A DNA stretch of 64,000 nucleotides from Rhizobium leguminosarum bv. trifolii WSM2297 (GTDB lineage Bacteria > Pseudomonadota > Alphaproteobacteria > Rhizobiales > Rhizobiaceae): positions 4,095,086 to 4,159,085 of the forward strand of contig NZ_JH719395.1 of the NCBI RefSeq assembly GCF_000271845.1, written 5' to 3'. Under the pieces are notes generated by a model, which searched no databases, was not told the DNA's origin, and saw only the letters and a list, made by a program, of their open reading frames with translations. Position numbers and translations under genes: made by a program. This document shows, in pieces, positions 26,929 through 36,086 of this stretch (position 1 is the first letter of the stretch; every line of letters begins with the position of its first letter).

Positions 26929-28094
26929 GCGGCGGGTCCCCGGATGCTGTCGATGACCGCATCGAGGATGACGGCCGATGAGAAGGCGAAGAAGACGGTC
27001 GGCACGGCGCCGAGCAGGACGAGATCCATCGCCGTCTGGCCGAGCCCCTGGAAGATGAAGATGCCGAAGCCGCCGCCGCCGATCAGTGCTGCGATCGTCA
27101 CCATGCCGATTGCCTGCACCAGCACGATGCGGATGCCGGTGAGGATGACCGGAAAGGCGAGCGGCATGTCGATGCCGGTGAGGATCTGCCGGCGCGTTAG
27201 CCCCATGCCGGCGGCGGCATCGCGCACCGAAGGGTCGACGCCCTCAAGGCCGACGACGGTGTTGGCGACGATCGGCAGCAGCGAATAGAGCACGAGTGCG
27301 ATCAAGGCAGGCGCCGTGCCGATGCCGCGGATGCCGATGGCAGCCGCCAGCGGCACATGGGTGGCGAGATAACCGAGCGGCAGCATCAGCAAGCCGAAGA
27401 GCGCCAGGCTCGGGATCGTCTGGATCAGGCTGAGGCCCTGCAGAACGATCGCCCGCAGCCTCGGCACCCAGAAGCAGAGGATGCCGAGCGGCAGGCCGAG
27501 AATGATGGCGATGGCTAGCGAGCCGAAGGCGAGCAGCAGATGCGAAATCGCTTCGGTCTCGAACTGCGGCGCCCGTGTCGAAAATTCCTTCATGATCGAA
27601 AGGCTGTCGAGCAGGCCGGAAGCGAGGCAGATGAACAGCAGCGCGGCATAGGCGACAAGGGCCGCGACCCGCATCCAGGGCGCCAGCTTGATTTTGACAA
27701 GTGCATCCGAGATGACGAGGCCGATCACCGCGAAGAGAACCCAGAAGCCGCCGCCGGGCGTCATCCGCGCCACCGTGCTGCCGGGCGGCGTCGCCGCGGC
27801 CGAGACGAGGCCGATCGCAACGATCAGCGCCGCCAGGCAGAGTGTGGCGATGGCAAGCCGGGCGAGCGCATTGCGCAGCAACAGCGTGGCGAAAGCGGTG
27901 AGGATGAGAAGGATGGTGAGGATGATGACGGAGGGCTGGGGAAGAAGCTGTGTCAGCAGCATCGGCTTGCCGGCGGCGATGCGGTTCGCCTTGACGTAGA
28001 TGAAGGGCATCAGTGCCGTCGCTGCGATGCCGCCGGCCACCAGAACCACGCCGAGCCGGTCCAGCCTGCGGACCGCTGAGGTTTCTTCCATCAA
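26925..28094 (-). CDS. yehY: Osmoprotectant-type ABC transporter permease (YehY-like)
   Basis: At 389 residues this is the larger permease of the system. The first 180 residues contain extra hydrophobic helices, then a standard permease core follows with the EAA loop RDAAAGMGLTRRQILTGIDMPLAFPVILTG. It follows the binding-protein gene after 67 bp and overlaps the ATPase gene by 4 bp. Length and N-terminal extension match YehY rather than ProW. Confidence 0.88.
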   Translation of the reverse strand: MMEETSAVRRLDRLGVVLVAGGIAATALMPFIYVKANRIAAGKPMLLTQLLPQPSVIILTILLILTAFATLLLRNALARLAIATLCLAALIVAIGLVSAAATPPGSTVARMTPGGGFWVLFAVIGLVISDALVKIKLAPWMRVAALVAYAALLFICLASGLLDSLSIMKEFSTRAPQFETEAISHLLLAFGSLAIAIILGLPLGILCFWVPRLRAIVLQGLSLIQTIPSLALFGLLMLPLGYLATHVPLAAAIGIRGIGTAPALIALVLYSLLPIVANTVVGLEGVDPSVRDAAAGMGLTRRQILTGIDMPLAFPVILTGIRIVLVQAIGMVTIAALIGGGGFGIFIFQGLGQTAMDLVLLGAVPTVFFAFSSAVILDAVIDSIRGPAA

Positions 28095-28161
28095 TCGAAC
28101 CCTGTCCGGTAATCCTCTGGGGAGGGAGGCTCCGCCCGCAACCGGGCGGAGCGAGCGATGA

Positions 28162-29070
28162 TTACTTCAGGAAGCCTTTTTCCTTGAGATAGGCTTCGGC
28201 GACGGATTTTGCCGGCTCGCCGTCAACCTGAATCTTGGCGTTCAGCTTGCGCAACTCGTCGGCGGTCAGGCTCTTGAAGATCGGCGAGAGCACTTCCTCG
28301 ATCTTCGGGTTGGCCTTCAGCACCTCTTCGCGGATGATCGGCGTCGGGGCATAGACCTGCTGCACGTTCTTGTCGTCTTCGAGAACGGTGAGCTCGGCCG
28401 CTTCGATCGCGCCATCGGTGCCGTAGACCATGGCAGTGTTGACGCCATTGGTCTGGTCGGCGGCCGCCTTGATCGTCGCCGCCGTGTCGCCGCCGGAGAG
28501 AACGACCATCTGGTCGGGTTTCAGCTGGAAGCCGTAGGTCGTCTGGAAGGCGGGAAGCGCACCGGCCGAATTGACGAATTCGGCCGAGGCGGCAAGCTTG
28601 GCGGCACCGCCGCCGGCAACCCATTTGCCGAAGTCCGTGAGGCTCTTCAGCTTGTTCGGGCCGGCAACATCGCTGCGCACGGCGAGCGCCCAGGTGTTAT
28701 TCGCCGGCGACGGCGTCAGCCAGACGATCTTGTTGGCGTCGTAATCGAGCTTCTTTGCCAGCTCATAACCCTGGTCGATGTTCTTCCAGGCGGCGTCATC
28801 GGCCTTGTTGAAGAAGAAGCCGGCATTGCCGGTATATTCCGGGTAGATGTCGATTTCGCCGGCGGTGATCGCCTTGCGCACGACCGGCGTCGCACCCAGC
28901 GCGATGCGGTCCTGCGTCTTGATGCCATTGGCTTCGAGCGCAAGCGCGATGACGTTGCCGAGCAGCGTGCCTTCCGTGTCGATCTTCGACGAGACGACGA
29001 CGTCTGCGGCCTGAACCGCGCCCGCCGCGAAGGCGGAGAGCGAGACGGCAAGTGCGAGTTTCTTCAGCAT
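28162..29070 (-). CDS. osmF: Osmoprotectant-type periplasmic binding protein (OsmF/YehZ-like)
   Basis: This 302-residue protein has a signal peptide of 21 residues (MLKKLALAVSLSAFAAGAVQA). The OpuAC-type binding fold includes VVSSKIDTEGTLLGNVIALALE, IDIYPEYTGNAGFFF and YAPTPIIREEVL. It is the first gene of the yehZYXW-like operon. E. coli YehZ binds glycine betaine weakly, so the true ligand here is uncertain (betaine, choline or another quaternary amine). Confidence 0.88.
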   Translation of the reverse strand: MLKKLALAVSLSAFAAGAVQAADVVVSSKIDTEGTLLGNVIALALEANGIKTQDRIALGATPVVRKAITAGEIDIYPEYTGNAGFFFNKADDAAWKNIDQGYELAKKLDYDANKIVWLTPSPANNTWALAVRSDVAGPNKLKSLTDFGKWVAGGGAAKLAASAEFVNSAGALPAFQTTYGFQLKPDQMVVLSGGDTAATIKAAADQTNGVNTAMVYGTDGAIEAAELTVLEDDKNVQQVYAPTPIIREEVLKANPKIEEVLSPIFKSLTADELRKLNAKIQVDGEPAKSVAEAYLKEKGFLK

Positions 29071-29465
29071 GGAAAGTCCCCTTGGTTTGACATCGTTAGC
29101 ACTTTGAATTGCTGCATTATGCAGATGCGCAAGCCCCGGGCGGGAGGTCTGCGCACAGGGAGTCTGCCGGCGAGGGCAGTGAGGCCGCCATCATGCCGGA
29201 ATTGCGTGCGTCATGGAAATAGCGTGCCCGTCCGAAAAATCGATGCAAGCCCCCTCCAGTTTTTACGGTCGCGCCGCGATTATGGCGGCGAATGCACCTC
29301 CGCGCGCGGAAACGCATTCCCTTTTCCAGGGTCGGCGCGATTTGTTTTTGTCCCCTTGCGTGTTTCCACGGCGTTCCGGTGCTTCTCTCGCGGTTTGCCG
29401 CCGCCCGGATTTCTTTATGACGGAAACGATAGCCCGCCTCTTTCGAGGCAGGGATATCTTTTTTC
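29071..29465. other. Divergent osmF / LysR-type promoter region
   Basis: 395 bp between divergent genes. It holds a degenerate palindromic repeat at 29099-29124 and otherwise no recognised element. Open frames across it (both strands) lack ribosome-binding sites. It must contain the promoter of the transporter and that of the regulator. Confidence 0.5.
29099..29124. repeat. Collapsed copy of the CTGCATAATT repeat
   Basis: The leader CACTTTGAATT is the same as before the repeat at 25168. It is followed by CTGCAT-T-ATGCAG, as if the whole inner part of the palindrome had been deleted. Confidence 0.55.
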
Positions 29466-30752
29466 GTGAACACATCATATCGTCCGGTTTTTCCAGCGCT
29501 TTCCGGAGCCGGCCATTTGCATCTCGGTGCCCTGTTCATCGCCCACCAAGTCCTTGGCTCCGGTTCGGTGCGCCAGACCGCGCGGCGTTTCCAGCTGTCG
29601 CCGTCGACTGTCTCGGCGGCCATCCACCATCTCGAGACCGAACTGGCGATGAAGCTGACCGAGCGCGCCTCCGGCGAACTGGTGACGCTGATTGCCAGCG
29701 GCAGGGTGTTTCAAGGCATGGTACCGATTACGGCGGCGATCGGCGAACTCGGCCAGTTGGCCGGTCACGGCGATGCCGACACAGACGAGGCCTGGGCATC
29801 CCGCATTCCCATCAAGATCGTCACCATCGAGCGGTTTCTCGAAGTGGCCGATCAGGGCAGCATCAACCGCGCCGCTCGCCGCCTTCGCCTGGGTCAGCCG
29901 CAGCTTTCGCTGCAGCTTGCCAATCTTGAGACATTCCTGGGTGCTCGCCTGTTCGAGCGGCAGGCGCAGGGTTCGGTGCTGACGGAGGAGGGCAGGCGCG
30001 CCTACCAGATTTTCACGACGATCAGCCAGGCCTGGAACGATCTGAAATCGCAGGCCGACGAGCGTTATCGGCGCACCGCCCGATCGCTGCGCATCGGCTC
30101 GATCATCCCGACCGGCTCGGAAAGCTGGGTGGCGCGCTGCCTGGGCGTGCTGGTCTCCGAATGGAATCTCGGCCGCAACAACAATGCGATCTCACTGGTG
30201 TCGATGACCGCCGACGATCTGCGCGAGGCGCTGAAGAGCGGCCGCATCGATGTGGCGATCCTGGATTCGGTCTTCGGGCTGGAAAGCTTCCGGCATCGCG
30301 AATTGCTGCAGACCGACATGGTGGTGATCGCCCCGCCCGATAGCACCGGGGCAAACGTCGCCGATCTCGTCGCCGCCCACCCGATCTGCATGCCGAGCCC
30401 GCGCACCGGCCTCGGCCACGCCGCCATGGCCTTCAGCGACGGACGTGCGCCCAACCGGCGGCTGCGCAGCCGGGATATCACCGCAGCGGATTCGCTGCCC
30501 GTCATCGTCGACCTCGTCGCCCATCACGGCTACGTTTCCTTCCTCGGCCGCGTCAGCGCCATGCCGATCGCCGATAAGGTGCGCATCGTCGATCTCGACG
30601 AACATCTGCCGATGTCCTATCACGTCGCCTTCAACCATCGCAAAGCCGCCGCCGATGCCTGTGCCGTCATCATCGAGGCGGCGGCCAGAATTACGTCGGA
30701 ACCTGTCGCGCAGACCATGGCGCGCGACAAAGCCAGGGAGAATGCAGCGTGA
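29466..30752 (+). CDS. LysR-type regulator with two N-terminal helix-turn-helix domains
   Basis: At 428 residues it is about 120 longer than a normal LysR protein. A first LysR-like HTH occupies residues 17-80 (VRQTARRFQLSPSTVSAAIHHLE), and a second, better-preserved one lies at 116-175 (INRAARRLRLGQPQLSLQLANLE, then LFERQ). The effector-binding domain follows from about 205 (RSLRIGSIIPTGSESWVARC). The start is GTG. Its last codon overlaps the start of cutC. It is divergent from the osmF operon. Whether it controls that operon or cutC is unknown. Confidence 0.85.
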   Translation: MNTSYRPVFPALSGAGHLHLGALFIAHQVLGSGSVRQTARRFQLSPSTVSAAIHHLETELAMKLTERASGELVTLIASGRVFQGMVPITAAIGELGQLAGHGDADTDEAWASRIPIKIVTIERFLEVADQGSINRAARRLRLGQPQLSLQLANLETFLGARLFERQAQGSVLTEEGRRAYQIFTTISQAWNDLKSQADERYRRTARSLRIGSIIPTGSESWVARCLGVLVSEWNLGRNNNAISLVSMTADDLREALKSGRIDVAILDSVFGLESFRHRELLQTDMVVIAPPDSTGANVADLVAAHPICMPSPRTGLGHAAMAFSDGRAPNRRLRSRDITAADSLPVIVDLVAHHGYVSFLGRVSAMPIADKVRIVDLDEHLPMSYHVAFNHRKAAADACAVIIEAAARITSEPVAQTMARDKARENAA

Positions 30753-31477
30753 CCGTCCTGCTGGAAGTGTGCGTAGACAGCGCCGAGGGACTGGCTGCCG
30801 CGATCGAAGGCGGCGCCGGCCGCATCGAACTCTGCTCGGCGCTGGAACTCGGCGGCCTGACGCCGCTGCCGAGCCTGATGCGGATCGCCGCCAGGGCGCC
30901 GATTCCGGTCTACGCCATGATCCGCCCGCACGCCGGCCCGTTCATCTTCGACCGCCTCGACGAGGAAGCGATGATGCTCGATATCGATGCGGCGCGCGCC
31001 GCAGGCCTCGCCGGCGTCGTCATCGGCGCCAACCGGCCGGATGGCACGCTCGACCTGCCGCTGATCCACCGGCTGAAGGCGCATGCCGCCGGCTTGGGAT
31101 CGACGCTGCACCGCGCTTTCGACCTGGTGCCGGATGCCGATCAGGCGCTGGAACAGGCGGTCGAGCTCGGCGTTGAGCGCATCCTCACCTCCGGCTGCGC
31201 GCTGAAGGCGGCCGACGGTCTCGACACGCTGAAACGCCTCTCGGCGAAGGCGGCGGGGCGTATCTCGATCATGCCCGGCAGCGGCATCCGCCCCGCCAAT
31301 GTCGGCGAAATCCTGCGGGCGACCGGGGCCAGTGAAGTCCACGGTTCCTGCAGCTCACCGGTCGAAAGCGCCGATCCGCGCGCCGTGGCTTTTGGTTTCG
31401 AGGCGAAGAACAAGAACAAGACGGATAGTGCTGTGGTTAGGGAGATGTGCAGGGCGATTGCGTCAATGGAGCGTTAG
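30749..31477 (+). CDS. cutC: CutC family protein
   Basis: This 242-residue TIM-barrel protein has the family N-terminus LLEVCVDSAEGLAAAIEGGA and RIELCSALELGGLTPS-type sequence. VYAMIRPHAGPF and LTSGCALKAADGL are the conserved core. CutC is named for copper homeostasis in E. coli, but its biochemical role is still disputed. The GTG start overlaps the stop of the LysR-type gene (GTGA), so the two are translationally coupled. The C-terminal KNKNK stretch is low complexity. Confidence 0.9.
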   Translation: MTVLLEVCVDSAEGLAAAIEGGAGRIELCSALELGGLTPLPSLMRIAARAPIPVYAMIRPHAGPFIFDRLDEEAMMLDIDAARAAGLAGVVIGANRPDGTLDLPLIHRLKAHAAGLGSTLHRAFDLVPDADQALEQAVELGVERILTSGCALKAADGLDTLKRLSAKAAGRISIMPGSGIRPANVGEILRATGASEVHGSCSSPVESADPRAVAFGFEAKNKNKTDSAVVREMCRAIASMER

Positions 31478-31778
31478 CGGTCTCGCAATTCCGGACGGAA
31501 AGTGTTTTGCGCTTTTGAAACGCGAATGCAGTGCTTGCCGCATGGGTCCTCGGGTCAAGCCCGAGGACGACGGAGAGTGGGGGAGTCTATACGGCAAGAA
31601 CCGTAAATGCAGTGGTTCTGCTGGAATTGGCGCCTTTCGTTTTACGCAATTTCCCACAAATCCGCTCGCTCAGTTGGGCCGGAATCCGCCGGACGTCTCG
31701 CTTCTTGCCAATCGCATCTCCCACCCTCCGTCCTGCTCGGGCTTGACCCGAGCATCCACAACCAAGCACTCTGCGCGC
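31478..31778. repeat. First REP doublet, upstream of GIY-YIG gene
   Basis: The direct-strand element is at 31520-31575 with stem CCTCGGG-tcaag-CCCGAGG (31548-31566). An inverted element at 31721-31778 has stem GCTCGGG-cttga-CCCGAGC (31735-31753). The spacer of about 145 bp carries GGCAAGAA and TTCTTGCC as a further inverted pair. Flanks are conserved too (CCACCCTCCGTC on the inverted side). The inverted element runs up to the start codon of the GIY-YIG gene. No gene other than repeat DNA is present. Confidence 0.8.
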
Positions 31779-32063
31779 ATGGCGGGATATGTTTACATCG
31801 TCACCAACCAGAAAAACGGCACTCTCTATATCGGCGTGACCTCCGATCTGGAGCGCCGCATCTATGAGCATCGCGAAGGGCTGACGCCGGGCTTTGCCTG
31901 GAAATACGGATGCACACGTCTCGTCAGGTACGAGGAGCATTGGGATATCGGCGCTGCGATCCAGCGGGAGAAGTCATTGAAGCGATGGTATCGGCAATGG
32001 AAGATCGATCTGGTCGAGGCGATGAATCCCGACTGGAATGACCTTTATTTGACGCTGTGGTGA
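31779..32063 (+). CDS. GIY-YIG domain nuclease, small single-domain
   Basis: This 94-residue protein is essentially one GIY-YIG domain: GYVYIV (residues 3-8), LYIGVT (16-21), DLERRIYEH with the catalytic Arg27 and His31, and the metal-binding Glu64 in QREKSLKRW. The catalytic set is complete, and the protein resembles the YhbQ/UPF0213-like group. It has no signal peptide or additional domain. The gene lies exactly between two REP-like doublets: the ATG abuts the end of one repeat and the TGA overlaps the first bases of the next. No clear ribosome-binding site is visible. A role in repeat DNA processing is a hypothesis. Confidence 0.88.
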   Translation: MAGYVYIVTNQKNGTLYIGVTSDLERRIYEHREGLTPGFAWKYGCTRLVRYEEHWDIGAAIQREKSLKRWYRQWKIDLVEAMNPDWNDLYLTLW

Positions 32064-32350
32064 CGCGAATGCAGTGCTTGCCGCATGGGTCCTCGGGTCA
32101 AGCCCGAGGACGACGGAGTGTGGTGTGGGCACTGCGGCAAGTAAGCGTCGTAGACACCAAACGACAAGCAAATTGGGACCGCGGGTTCTCCCCATTTTTG
32201 CGCGGTCCCGGACATAAAAACCGGCGCCCATCTTTGATGGAATTGCTCCAAGCGTCCCGGCTCTTGCCGGTCGTTGCCCCCACCCTCCGTCACACTCGGG
32301 CTTGACCCGAGTATCCACGCCGAGCACTCCACGCAGCTGTTGTGCGTCGA
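32063..32350. repeat. Second REP doublet, downstream of GIY-YIG gene
   Basis: 32063-32118 is a perfect 56-bp direct repeat of 31520-31575 (stem 32091-32109). An inverted element at 32280-32340 has stem ACTCGGG-cttga-CCCGAGT (32294-32312). The spacer holds GGGACCGCG/CGCGGTCCC, a separate dyad near 32175-32210. The layout copies that of the first doublet. Confidence 0.85.
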
Positions 32351-33370
32351 CTACCCCCCAACCCGGATCACTGCCTTGATCAACCCGCTCTTCTCATGCG
32401 CCCAGCGCGGGAGGTCGCGCGGTGCGTCGGCAAGCGTCGTGCGGTGGGTAATCAGCTTGTCCACCGGCACCAGGCCTTTGGCGATCGAATCGGCCACGTG
32501 CTCGAAATCGGCGCGGGTGGCGTTGCGGCTGCCGATCAGCATCATTTCGCGTTTGTGGAATTCGGGGTCGGAGAAGCGGATATCGTCCTTGACGACGCTG
32601 ACCAGCACCAATGCGCCGCCATGGGCGACGAAGGAGAAGGCCTTTTCCATCGACGGGCCGTAACCGGTGGCGTCGAAGACCACGTCGAAACCGTCGCCAT
32701 TGGTTTTTTCGCGCACGGCGTCCGCGGTTGCCTCGTTGGCGACGATGCCTGACGTAAAGCCGAAACGCTCGGCGGCCATCTGCAGCCGCTCGGTGCTGGT
32801 ATCGAGCAGCGTCACCTGATGGCCCGCGATGCGCGAGAAGATCGCCGCGCCGAGCCCGATCGGCCCGGCGCCGATGATGAGCGCCCGGGCGCCGGCGGCG
32901 GTCAGCGAGCGGCGCACCGCATGGGCGCCGATGGCCAGAAACTCGACAGTCGCAGCCGCCTCGAGGCTGAGGCCCTTGGCGGGGTAGAGATTGCCTGACG
33001 GAACCGAGATCTCCTCGCAGAAAGCGCCGTCCGTATGGACGCCGAGCACCTTGATGTTGGTGCAGCAATTGGGTTTGCCCTTGATGCAGGCGACGCATTG
33101 GCCGCAGGAGAGATAGGGATTGACGATGACGGGCGTGCCGACGGCCATGGCAACGCCATCGCCCGCTTCCAGCACCGTTGCCGACACCTCATGCCCCATC
33201 ACCCGGGGATATTCGAGAAAAGGATGTTTGCCCTCGAAGATGTGGTAATCGGTGCCGCAGATGCCGACATGGCTGACGGCAAGGCGCACCCAGCCGGGCG
33301 CCGGTGCGGCGGGCGATGGGCGCTCTACCAGGTCGAGCACGCCGGGCTCCCGGCAAACAACTGCTTTCAT
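32351..33370 (-). CDS. Zinc-dependent alcohol/sugar dehydrogenase
   Basis: This 339-residue zinc MDR dehydrogenase has the catalytic zinc site CGTDYHIFEG and GHEV. The structural zinc cluster in SCGQCVACIKGKPNCC is intact, and the NAD loop is GAGPIGLGAA. It is the last gene of the deoxysugar cluster, 64 bp after the permease gene. Candidate reactions are oxidation of L-fucose or of a keto-deoxy acid intermediate. Relatives include L-idonate, sorbitol and galactitol dehydrogenases, so the substrate is inferred only from the neighbours. Confidence 0.85.
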   Translation of the reverse strand: MKAVVCREPGVLDLVERPSPAAPAPGWVRLAVSHVGICGTDYHIFEGKHPFLEYPRVMGHEVSATVLEAGDGVAMAVGTPVIVNPYLSCGQCVACIKGKPNCCTNIKVLGVHTDGAFCEEISVPSGNLYPAKGLSLEAAATVEFLAIGAHAVRRSLTAAGARALIIGAGPIGLGAAIFSRIAGHQVTLLDTSTERLQMAAERFGFTSGIVANEATADAVREKTNGDGFDVVFDATGYGPSMEKAFSFVAHGGALVLVSVVKDDIRFSDPEFHKREMMLIGSRNATRADFEHVADSIAKGLVPVDKLITHRTTLADAPRDLPRWAHEKSGLIKAVIRVGG

Positions 33371-33398
33371 GACGGGTCTCGCATTCTTGGGAAATGGA

Positions 33399-33425
33399 AG
33401 AAGCCGGCTGTTCCGACCGGCTTCT
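33399..33425 (-). terminator. Stem-loop after sugar permease gene
   Basis: A perfect 9-bp stem (AGAAGCCGG / CCGGCTTCT) with a nine-base loop lies in the 64-bp gap between permease and dehydrogenase genes. There is no T-run on the minus strand, so it may be a processing or stability element. Confidence 0.45.
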
Positions 33426-33434
33426 CTTTATCGT

Positions 33435-34409
33435 TCAATTGCTCCGGCGGCGGCGCAGCTGGTCGAAGAAGACGATCACGATGATCAACAGACCGGTGAT
33501 GATGCGCTGCCAGAAGGAGTTGACGTTCAGAAGGTTGGCGCCGTTGTTGATGGTGGCGAGAATGAAGGCGCCGATCAGCGGGCCGTGCACGGAACCGACG
33601 GCGCCGAACAGGCTGGTGCCGCCGATGACCGAGGAGGCGATCGCCTGCAATTCCCAGCCGTCGGCCTGCGTCGCATTGCCGATCGCGATGCGCGAGGCGA
33701 GCAGCACGCCGACGAAGGCGGCAAAGCCGGCCGAGAGGATATAGGCGAGATAGATCATGCCCTTGACGTTGACGCCGGAAAGGCGCGCGGCTTCCGCATT
33801 CGAACCGACCGCGAAGAGATAGCGGCCCCAGCGGCTGAGATGCAGGAAGACGAAGGAGGGCACCGCCACCAGGATGACCATCCAGAAGAGGCTCGGAATG
33901 CTGAGAAAATCGGCGCGGGCAAAATTGCTGAAACTCTCGTCGGTAATGCTGATCGTCGAGCCGTTGGTGATCAACAGGCCGATGCCGCGCAGCGACGTCA
34001 GCGTCGCCAGCGTGATGATGAACGGCGGCAGGCCCATATGTACGATGCCGAACCCATGGAAGGCGCCGATCGCCACGCCGACGAGCAGCGTCAGCACGAT
34101 CGCGCCCCAGAGCGGCACGCCGGCCTGCAACAGCCAGGCGATGATGACGGTGCAGAAGCCGACGATGGCGCCGACCGACAAGTCGATGCCGGCTGTGATG
34201 ATGACGAAGGTCTGGCCGAGCGCCAGGATCGCCGTCATCGCGCCCTGACGGAGCAGGTTGGAGATGTTGAGCGGCGTCCAGAAGCTGGCTGTGGCAAAGG
34301 CGAGCAGGATCCAGAGGAAGAGCAGCAGGCCGATCAGCGTCAGGCCGAACAGGATGTTCATTTTCCGGCGCGGCGGCGGCGCGACGATCTCGGTGGGGGT
34401 GGCGGTCAT
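33435..34409 (-). CDS. Sugar ABC transporter permease (RbsC/XylH type)
   Basis: This 324-residue hydrophobic protein has the class signature ALGQTFVIITAGIDLSVGAIVG and the ATPase contact loop LFAVGSNAEAARLSGVNVKG. About nine transmembrane segments are visible. It forms the channel of the transporter with the ATPase at 34533-36086 and the binding protein at 36217-37206. The 123 bp between it and the ATPase gene are filled by a palindromic repeat. The likely substrate is L-fucose or a related sugar, from context. Confidence 0.88.
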   Translation of the reverse strand: MTATPTEIVAPPPRRKMNILFGLTLIGLLLFLWILLAFATASFWTPLNISNLLRQGAMTAILALGQTFVIITAGIDLSVGAIVGFCTVIIAWLLQAGVPLWGAIVLTLLVGVAIGAFHGFGIVHMGLPPFIITLATLTSLRGIGLLITNGSTISITDESFSNFARADFLSIPSLFWMVILVAVPSFVFLHLSRWGRYLFAVGSNAEAARLSGVNVKGMIYLAYILSAGFAAFVGVLLASRIAIGNATQADGWELQAIASSVIGGTSLFGAVGSVHGPLIGAFILATINNGANLLNVNSFWQRIITGLLIIVIVFFDQLRRRRSN

Positions 34410-34426
34410 GAATTTTTCTCCCTCTT

Positions 34427-34529
34427 AGAGCATTTCCGTTTTTCTCCAATCACGGAAATTCTCTATCTCTTTGTTTTCACGCAATTTCCGAGCGCAAAAC
34501 CGCGACGTACTTTTGCTGGAATTGCCTTA
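34427..34529. repeat. Palindromic intergenic repeat, GCAATTCC family
   Basis: Two hairpins: ATTTCCG (34432-34438) with CGGAAAT (34453-34459), and the nested pairs GCAATTTCC (34481-34489)/GGAATTGC (34518-34525) and GCAAAA (34494-34499)/TTTTGC (34511-34516). The second hairpin is the same design as 38913-38970. The element lies inside an operon between ATPase and permease genes. Confidence 0.7.
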
Positions 34530-34532
34530 CGC

Positions 34533-36086
34533 TCAGACGCCGATCGCTTCGCTGAGCACTTCTTCATGCGTCGCTGCGTGGTAATCATGGCTGGCGACGA
34601 TCTTGCCGCCGCGAAAGACGTGCAGCCGGTCGGCCAGTTCGTAGACCTCGGGCAGGTAGGAGGAGATCAGGATAATGCCGGCACCCTCCTTCAGAAGCTT
34701 GGCGAACAGCCGGTAGATTTCCGCCTTGGTGCCGACGTCGACGCCGACGGTCGGTTCGTCGAAGATGAAAAGCCTGGCGCCATGGCTCAGCCACTTGCCG
34801 ATGACAACCTTCTGCTGGTTTCCGCCCGACATGCTGGAGACGGGAACGCGCCGGCTCGGCGTCTTGATGCTGAGATCGCGGATCTGCTTGTCGGCATTCG
34901 CCGACTCGCGCGTGTGGTTGATAACAGGCCCCTGGCTGAGGCGTCCGAACACCGGCAGGTTGATGTTGAGGCCGATCGACTGATTGAGGCAGAGCCCCTG
35001 GTCGCGCCGGCTTTCCGGCGCCAGAGCAATGCCGAGCTCCATCGCGGTGCGTTCGTTCCGGATGTCGACGCGCTTGCCCATCCAGTGGATTTCGCCGGCG
35101 TTTGTCGGCTGGCGCCCATAGAGCCCGAGCGCGAATTCGCTGCGTCCGGCGCCGATCAGGCCATAGAGGCCGACGATCTGCCCGGCCTTGACGCTCAGCG
35201 ACACGTCCTCGAAGCCCGGGCCGGAAAGGCCGCGGACGTCGACGATCGTTTGGCCGATGGCAATCTCTTCCTTGTGGTAGATCTGTTCGATCGAGCGGTT
35301 GATCATCAGCGCGATCAGCTCGGCATCGTTGGTCTCGCCGATCAGGCGCGTGCCGACATGGGTGCCGTCGCGCAGCACCGAGACCCGGTCGGCAAGCTCG
35401 AACACTTCCTCCATGCGGTGGCTGATATAGACGATGGTGACGCCTTCACCCTGCAGGCGGCGGATCAGCTTGAAGAGCTGCGCCGATTCCTGGCGTGTGA
35501 GATAGGCTGTCGGTTCATCGAAGATCAGGAACTGGGTGCCTCGCATGGCGGCGCGCGCGGTCGCCACCAGCTGCTGCTGGCCGATCGTCAGCGAGCTCAG
35601 CAGTGCGCCTGCCGGCAGTCCGAAGCCGAGATCGTCGAGCACGGCCTGGCCCATCTTTTCCATCTGCTTCTTGCGCATCAGGCCGTAGCGGTTGACCTCG
35701 TCGCCGAGAAAGAGATTGGCGGCGACCGTCAGATGCCGGCAGAGGACGACTTCCTGGTGGACGGCGTTGATGCCGCGGGCGATCGCCTCGTTCGGCGTCG
35801 ACAGCCCCACCGGATGGCCGCACCACAGCACCTCGCCCGCGGTGCGGGTGATGACGCCGGTCAGCAATTTGATCAGGGTGGATTTGCCGGCGCCATTTTC
35901 GCCGACGATGGCGTGGATTTCACCGGCGAGAAAGGTCAGCGTCGCCGGCTTCAGCGCCTGGACAAGACCGTAGTTCTTCTGCAGGCCTTTGAGTTCGAGG
36001 ATAGGCGATCCGGCGGGAATTCGATTGGCTTCCTTCAGCGTCGCGCTGTCATCATGGCGATGACTGACCTCTTCCAGTCCGATCAT
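34533..36086 (-). CDS. Sugar ABC transporter ATP-binding protein, double ATPase domain
   Basis: This 517-residue protein has two ABC domains. The first has Walker A GENGAGKSTLIK, signature LTIGQQQLV and Walker B FLIFDEPTAYL. The second has GLIGAGRSE as a degenerate P-loop, MSGGNQQKVVIGKWL and LFIFDEPTVGVD. This is the RbsA/MglA architecture. GGAGGAGAGG before ATG 36086 supports the start, since the earlier in-frame ATG lacks one. It follows the binding-protein gene after a terminator-like hairpin and a 21-bp tandem repeat. Confidence 0.9.
   Translation of the reverse strand: MIGLEEVSHRHDDSATLKEANRIPAGSPILELKGLQKNYGLVQALKPATLTFLAGEIHAIVGENGAGKSTLIKLLTGVITRTAGEVLWCGHPVGLSTPNEAIARGINAVHQEVVLCRHLTVAANLFLGDEVNRYGLMRKKQMEKMGQAVLDDLGFGLPAGALLSSLTIGQQQLVATARAAMRGTQFLIFDEPTAYLTRQESAQLFKLIRRLQGEGVTIVYISHRMEEVFELADRVSVLRDGTHVGTRLIGETNDAELIALMINRSIEQIYHKEEIAIGQTIVDVRGLSGPGFEDVSLSVKAGQIVGLYGLIGAGRSEFALGLYGRQPTNAGEIHWMGKRVDIRNERTAMELGIALAPESRRDQGLCLNQSIGLNINLPVFGRLSQGPVINHTRESANADKQIRDLSIKTPSRRVPVSSMSGGNQQKVVIGKWLSHGARLFIFDEPTVGVDVGTKAEIYRLFAKLLKEGAGIILISSYLPEVYELADRLHVFRGGKIVASHDYHAATHEEVLSEAIGV

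Follow-up and report, generated by a model that had tools for sequence, protein, structure and literature searches.

A GIY-YIG nuclease gene bounded by CGTC-tagged REP hairpins in Rhizobium leguminosarum as a probable small mobile unit

In the analysed window, the whole 64 kb stretch of Rhizobium leguminosarum bv. trifolii WSM2297 DNA, the interval between cutC (30749–31477, plus strand; Pfam PF03932, E 1.8e-70) and a zinc-binding alcohol dehydrogenase gene (32351–33370, minus strand; PF08240 and PF00107), the left and right anchors of the site, is occupied by a GIY-YIG nuclease gene of 94 codons (31779–32063, plus strand; PF01541, E 2e-16) and by CGTC-tagged REP hairpins. REP1 (31543–31572, minus strand) and REP2 (31729–31758, plus strand) precede the gene, and REP3 (32086–32115, minus strand) and REP4 (32288–32317, plus strand) follow it. 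Two different rules applied to the 64 kb returned exactly these four CGTC-tagged REPs, all of them around the one GIY-YIG gene. In each REP, CGTC is followed by a 9-bp stem, whose two arms enclose the loop CTTGA, and then by CCA; as single-strand DNA all four fold into hairpins, with z values of −4.3, −5.1, −4.3 and −2.9 for REP1 to REP4, respectively. The REP pattern with up to three mismatches matched four times in the 64 kb versus zero times in 100 shuffles, which rules out a chance origin of the four. All four exhibit the features of the CGTC REP superfamily, namely a CGTC head outside an 8–9 bp stem, a loop of 4–5 nt and a CCA-type tail. A stem starting with A-T is called almost invariable for CGTC REPs in the consulted parts of a 2013 survey (BMC Genomics 2013;14:522, PMC3733652), and a paired A-T at the stem start is absent from the window REPs, whose stems begin with CT, GT, GT and AC; most of the relatives' REPs start with AT, and this start is treated here as typical rather than defining.

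The order along the plus strand is REP minus, REP plus, gene, REP minus and REP plus, so that each doublet is arranged heads-in and the gene lies inside a heads-out pair; this inner pair (31729–31758 and 32086–32115), which encloses the gene, is more telling than the heads-in doublets. The gene does lie between two doublets, each of two REPs in opposite orientations, as an earlier sequence-only reading had stated, and two of the measures given in that reading have to be corrected. The spacers, put there at 145–160 bp, measure 156 and 172 bp from REP core to REP core (spacer 1, 31573–31728, separating the REP1 and REP2 heads, with related spacers at other genomic sites in relatives; spacer 2, 32116–32287), and the start codon, placed there at the edge of a palindrome, begins at 31779, 20 bp beyond the REP proper, which ends at 31758. 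The leader between them (31759–31778, plus strand) has its counterpart in the spacing to the upstream REP in the loci of set 1 described below. On the other hand, the 56-bp identity of the first doublet members is exact, with copy 1 (31520–31575, comprising 23 trailer-like bp, REP1 and 3 bp) matching copy 2 (32063–32118, comprising the trailer and REP3), and the last base of the gene's TGA is indeed the first base of the second copy. By eye, a likeness to gene trailers is seen on the left side of REP1 and a likeness to gene leaders on the right side of REP4, where a leader-like remnant (32318–32340, plus strand) recalls the leader before the start codon. The GIY-YIG frame stays open upstream through REP2, spacer 1 and REP1 (31299–32063 in the window, 254 codons), and annotation may therefore give a falsely long GIY-YIG protein. 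With hairpins near each end of the gene, the REPs could be read as its transcription terminators or as RNA-stabilising hairpins, which is highly improbable, since they are found upstream of it as well as downstream, no T run is seen by eye after the window REPs, and gene-less REP pairs occur elsewhere.

The 94-residue protein exhibits the domain, the conserved Tyr, Arg and Glu and, in its predicted structure, the fold of the GIY-YIG superfamily. Residues Y6, Y17, G19, R27, H31, E64 and N83, which we take to be the catalytic pattern of GIY-YIG, are invariant in 22 sequences including relatives down to 57% identity. The predicted structure (pLDDT 95) found its best solved match in the UPF0213 protein 1zg2 (E 1.2e-4), followed by another UPF0213 protein and then by Slx1 (6seh, E 0.013), a nuclease of branched DNA. 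The family is large, with a minimum of 7,995 clustered proteins (E 1e-10 or lower) out of 7,999 candidates scored, and the nearest relatives of the window gene are found in R. leguminosarum and R. vallis. An HUH tyrosine transposase, the trait of RAYT/REPtron elements, is not encoded between the window REPs, where the gene present is the GIY-YIG gene.

The generality of the pairing was assessed in three sets of loci with a strict REP rule (CGTC or TGTC, stem of 8–10, at most one mismatch, loop of 3–6, CCA tail). Set 1 comprises the best 80 of 128 relatives in genome contigs; set 2 comprises 60 of the 104 places listed (hand count) in 151 family genomes, from which two loci duplicating set-1 places were removed to leave 58 (37/60 flanked before removal); and set 3 comprises 60 of the 148 places listed (hand count) in 249 phylum genomes, none of them with an E value above 1.7e-32. 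A REP within 400 bp of the gene was observed at 69/80, 35/58 and 26/60 loci, respectively, amounting to 130 of the 198 distinct loci, with random placements in the same loci reaching a REP in 2.8, 1.4 and 3.1% of cases. Close to the gene, REP densities per kb were 2.70, 2.38 and 1.49, as compared with 0.050, 0.025 and 0.042 at distances of more than 1 kb (sets 1–3, with the set-2 duplicates included). When a long-loop rule was added, 70/80, 43/60 and 36/60 loci were flanked and random placements rose to 3–7%. The 68 of the 198 distinct loci at which the strict finder detected no REP may be due to hairpins of another type, to decay or to a gene that can live without REPs.

Twenty loci with weaker GIY-YIG matches (E 8e-14 to 2e-9) served as controls; nine came from genomes already represented in set 3, and none of the 20 had a REP within 400 bp. 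All seven control proteins checked of the 20 are GIY-YIG by Pfam, and the group is called UPF0213-like because one member, compared with solved structures, matched UPF0213 at E 4e-19, the value for the window protein being 9e-4. REP flanks as a general trait of small GIY-YIG genes are thus unsupported, and the tie of this particular GIY-YIG group to the repeats, supposed by the sequence-only reading, is borne out by 130/198 loci against 0/20 in the control. That reading had also named a gene usually lying away from the repeats as evidence against such a tie; this is not the case in sets 1 and 2, but fewer than half of the set-3 loci are flanked under the strict rule.

Differential orientation patterns were observed for the nearest REPs of the three sets. 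For set 1, with REPs counted up to 150 bp from the gene, the first one upstream is plus at 39 loci and minus at 12, and the first one downstream is minus at 32 and plus at 6; the upstream REP ends 19–23 bp before the gene at 28 of the 51 loci that have an upstream REP in this range. Set 3 is similar to set 1 (15 to 4 and 14 to 7), and set 2 is mixed (upstream 18 plus and 10 minus, downstream 12 minus and 17 plus), with several of its genes standing between two heads-out pairs. In set 4, drawn from another phylum, that of a Deltaproteobacteria MAG, and scored with a looser REP rule, 20 of 30 loci are flanked, and 51 hairpins lie near the genes versus 3 in 50 kb farther off.

Among named records, five were examined of the 33 with a match. 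CGTC REPs stand on both sides of the GIY-YIG gene in Azospirillum lipoferum 4B and Aeromonas caviae; Novosphingobium aromaticivorans pNL2 has a heads-out pair with a different tail, detected by the loose rule only; and the Neisseria gonorrhoeae relative of the gene sits in a CGTC-REP array in a record of the plasmid collection. The Neisseria gonorrhoeae records NZ_CP119140.1 and NZ_CP119142.1 (2.17 Mb) and the Aeromonas caviae record NZ_AP026896.1 (4.9 Mb) of this collection are chromosome-like in size. The Planktothrix agardhii relative has no CGTC REP at its locus; on p1 of this species (L348, 1489–1773) its neighbours are a gene for a type IIL restriction enzyme on one side and DISARM drmA on the other, and it is flanked by short GTCATTCTGAG repeats that may be another hairpin type. 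On Azospirillum lipoferum 4B AZO_p3 (L350, 1486–1779), the gene and two heads-out REP pairs are located between sufB and sufC. These two genes usually adjoin, and the placement is a clear-cut insertion.

The left and right stems were compared at loci where heads-out REPs stand both upstream and downstream of the gene, each no more than 150 bp away. In this group of 47 distinct loci, to which the window belongs, the two stems are identical at 35 and differ by at most one mismatch at 41; the 23 distinct stem pairs have a mean mismatch of 0.83 versus 3.80 with shuffled partners, the minimum of 5000 shuffles being 2.52. Protein distance and stem distance are likewise correlated among 66 non-redundant proteins (Mantel r 0.53, reached by 0 of 5000 permutations), a value that includes kinship. 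Within Rhizobium, CCCAGGG stems are found on both sides in one species group and CTCGGG stems in others. At the level of the sequences compared, REP stem sequence varies together with protein sequence.

The region or parts of it are present in 103 of 120 genus genomes, and the gap between cutC and the dehydrogenase gene was examined in 50 loci (L201–L250), of which two lack cutC, leaving 48 other Rhizobium genomes. Two of these carry the gene, 18 carry REPs without the gene and 28 have no REP; the gene is absent from 46 of the 48, so that the empty sites suggested for a search by the sequence-only reading do exist. Such sites were also considered with regard to a homing endonuclease gene, which would cut the empty allele and be copied into it. 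Of the gene-bearing sites, G001 has the arrangement REP-gene-REP, and G515 has one more REP and a frame interrupted by TGA. In the closest relative by DNA (L201, 91–92%), the gap holds one doublet, whose single spacer is resembled by spacer 2 of the window, and is 550 bp shorter; the two 56-bp copies of the window start 543 bp apart. Such single doublets may be precursors, or else scars of gene loss by recombination between direct repeats. The REP-less gaps (L219–L226 and L245–L249, and several of L256–L276) often hold another repeat family, of the CCCCTCACCCTAACCCTCTCCCCG type, as if these gaps accepted several repeat kinds.

Evidence bearing on mobility was obtained by comparing window positions 28000–36000 with the 12 closest loci, considering pieces longer than 60 bp. 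Only one locus, in R. leguminosarum Norway (L002), is syntenic with the window. In the other 11, homology is confined to the gene and its REPs, with the exception of short pieces of 65–81 bp that are mostly REP sequence and of a second gene copy in L006. At 8 of these 11 non-syntenic loci the homology starts at 31699–31726 and ends at 32118–32123, which marks REP2 as the left end and REP3 as the right end of the gene-bearing heads-out unit; the right-hand homology stops earlier in L007 and L008, and L012 has the gene alone. Copies within single genomes were also observed. R. leguminosarum Norway carries two copies about 40 kb apart (449 bp at 97.5%) that otherwise have in common only pieces of 28–62 bp, and in the Rhizobium relative G489 the block from first to fourth REP is present in two copies separated by about 605 kb (91.7% over 807 bp), with the fourth REP missed by the strict rule in one of the two block copies. 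The window aligns with the G489 block over 31528–32322 at 78%, and the G489 pair represents the duplication of a doublet-gene-doublet unit that the sequence-only reading had envisaged. A short target duplication was looked for at the window site and at the second Norway site and none was identified, the junctions being too variable.

Gene-less forms were searched for as heads-out pairs less than 220 bp apart in the Rhizobium loci L001–L012 and L201–L280, where 18 distinct pairs were found. The inner part of 13 of the 18 measures 64–72 bp and resembles the leader (CAACCAAGCAC) joined to the trailer (GTGCCAGCCGCA); 8 of the 18 match the leader with no more than one mismatch, and the trailer likeness was judged by eye. 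To that extent, that is in the REP stems, in the leader of 8/18 and by eye in the trailer, gene-less copies with both ends of the gene-bearing unit, as in MITE-like derivatives, are present in Rhizobium. In L339 and L341, a unit with the gene is found within a series of gene-less heads-out pairs. Tandem arrays of gene-less heads-out pairs were seen in L343 and in L342, where they repeat regularly every 352 bp, and L254, L255, L257 and L258 contain a heads-out pair with the tail CTG rather than CCA and no gene nearby, which is a further REP subtype.

A resident nuclease could also account for part of this picture. A 2025 report is said to describe Ssn, GIY-YIG site-specific single-strand nucleases whose cognate repeat, called NTS, is present in hundreds of copies in Neisseria, and this work reportedly concerns cleavage of single-stranded DNA and transformation. 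A protein of this kind would cut single-stranded REPs and shape uptake, recombination or repair, with the REPs themselves spread by ordinary recombination, and the gonococcal relative in its CGTC-REP array, 53% identical to the window protein over 93 residues, fits such a role. Taken alone, however, this explanation leaves the REP-bounded copies at new sites, the copies within genomes and the gene-less derivatives unaccounted for, and it is judged rather unlikely as the whole account.

The co-occurrence of gene and REPs was then considered across genomes with a specific REP pattern whose reversed control gave 0 matches in every genome; a first, broad pattern, which often gave 10–25 matches per genome, mostly non-palindromic in the rows shown, was rejected and replaced. 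Among the 151 genomes of the family, at least three REPs were found in 44 of the 69 that carry the gene versus 13 of the 82 that lack it (p 1.5e-9). After four REPs were discounted per gene copy, at least five REPs were found in 26/69 versus 9/82 (p 1.8e-4, kinship included), and a rank test on the discounted co-occurrence in the family genomes gave p 0.004. Similarly, among 120 Rhizobium genomes, at least three REPs occur in 13 of 16 with the gene (at least 90% identical) versus 16 of 104 without it, and in 8/16 versus 16/104 after the four-per-gene discount (p 0.004). In 8 of 10 relatives' genomes there are 4 to 64 core matches (two mismatches allowed; reversed control 0 to 6), of which the 4 of G009 look like chance, and many copies in opposite-facing pairs, a trait of the CGTC superfamily, are present in relatives' genomes, the window genome being outside this count. 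No match to the REP pattern was obtained in 19 of the 69 gene-bearing family genomes, in some owing to another REP loop. An abundance of the repeat in genomes lacking the gene, which the sequence-only reading had regarded as speaking against its hypothesis that the protein maintains or moves the repeats, is seen in part: 9 of the 82 gene-less family genomes carry at least five REPs, one of them 38. When these nine and four further genomes of the genus sample were re-searched for the family, no match was found in 11 of the 13 and one weak match in each of the other two.

REPs in genomes without the gene, the 56-bp direct repeats round the insert and the ease with which arrays and tandem units can be expanded by ordinary recombination are all compatible with REPs being recombination hot spots at which the gene is carried passively while another enzyme moves the repeats. 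Such passive carriage is nevertheless improbable, because it has to face the 0/20 flanked loci of the related GIY-YIG group, the covariation of stem type and protein type (kinship included) and the recurrence of the same layout in a second phylum.

The explanation preferred is that the locus probably represents a small mobile unit, in which a GIY-YIG nuclease gene is bounded by two heads-out CGTC REPs and the nuclease would act on its own REPs. As far as genome comparison can tell, the unit recurs at different sites with its ends at the REPs, it has been copied within genomes, and gene-less derivatives with similar ends exist. GIY-YIG enzymes are hydrolases by family and we know of no strand-joining activity among them, so any movement by such a hydrolytic nuclease would need host repair. 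In the mechanism proposed, the protein would recognise its own REP as a hairpin, either single-stranded or in a cruciform, and would cut it; repair from another REP-bounded copy could then spread the gene into places that hold a REP, and the same repair, acting in trans, might spread gene-less pairs into places already provided with a REP. At the cutC site, where the gene lies between the two 56-bp copies, the difference from the other genomes may reflect either a gain of the gene here or losses elsewhere via direct-repeat recombination. A broader proposition, put forward more tentatively and at somewhat less than even expectation, is that the GIY-YIG protein may be the dedicated enzyme by which the CGTC REP superfamily as a whole is mobilised, acting through hairpin cutting and copying by host repair. 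The enzyme is a strong candidate for the spreader of one of the two big bacterial hairpin-repeat families, and a specific, widespread and sequence-matched nuclease partner makes the spread of CGTC REPs directly testable. Should it prove to be the agent, then repeat families can be maintained by a nuclease for which no joining activity is known, in contrast to the HUH transposases.

Among known systems, the UPF0213-like and SLX1 GIY-YIG proteins offer the nearest solved folds (1zg2 and 6seh) to the predicted structure of the window protein, but the UPF0213-like group differs in its lack of REP flanks at all 20 loci. HUH transposases are thought to move GTAG REPs. The likeness to REPIN/RAYT systems, as far as the sources consulted describe them, lies in the presence, on both sides of the gene, of REPs that match its type, in gene-less pairs with similar ends and in a REP type tied to the protein, whereas the GTAG tag and the HUH tyrosine transposase of those systems are replaced here by CGTC and the unrelated GIY-YIG protein; if the broader proposition is true, GIY-YIG would be a second, chemically different solution to the role that RAYT plays for GTAG REPs. 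With the CGTC REP superfamily, as portrayed in the consulted parts of the 2013 survey, the window shares the CGTC head, the 8–9 bp stem, the 5-nt loop, the CCA tail and the opposite-orientation dimers. Those parts place CGTC REPs in many alphaproteobacterial and other genomes, mostly of alphaproteobacteria, name A. lipoferum, N. aromaticivorans and Neisseria among the organisms bearing them, report no dedicated transposase and no link to transposase genes, and leave open which enzyme, if any, spreads them (PMC3733652). The difference is that a GIY-YIG gene is a regular neighbour here, whereas the term GIY-YIG has no occurrence in the text of that survey (PMC3733652); a link between GIY-YIG and REPs was likewise not found among the papers listed, judged mostly by titles and abstracts. 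The Ssn nucleases reportedly share with the present system a small GIY-YIG protein and a cognate repeat, which adjoins the gene and has many further copies in the genome, and the gonococcal protein at 53% identity is a candidate Ssn. If Ssn acts as reported, cutting of hairpins or single strands by the Rhizobium protein becomes likely and the gene-repeat link is less novel. The system described here differs from Ssn, as reported, in the mobile unit with REPs at its ends, in the derivatives that lack the gene and in the connection with CGTC REPs, all of which may be new; subject to the Ssn work, what is added is the evidence for a mobile unit and the tie to the CGTC superfamily.
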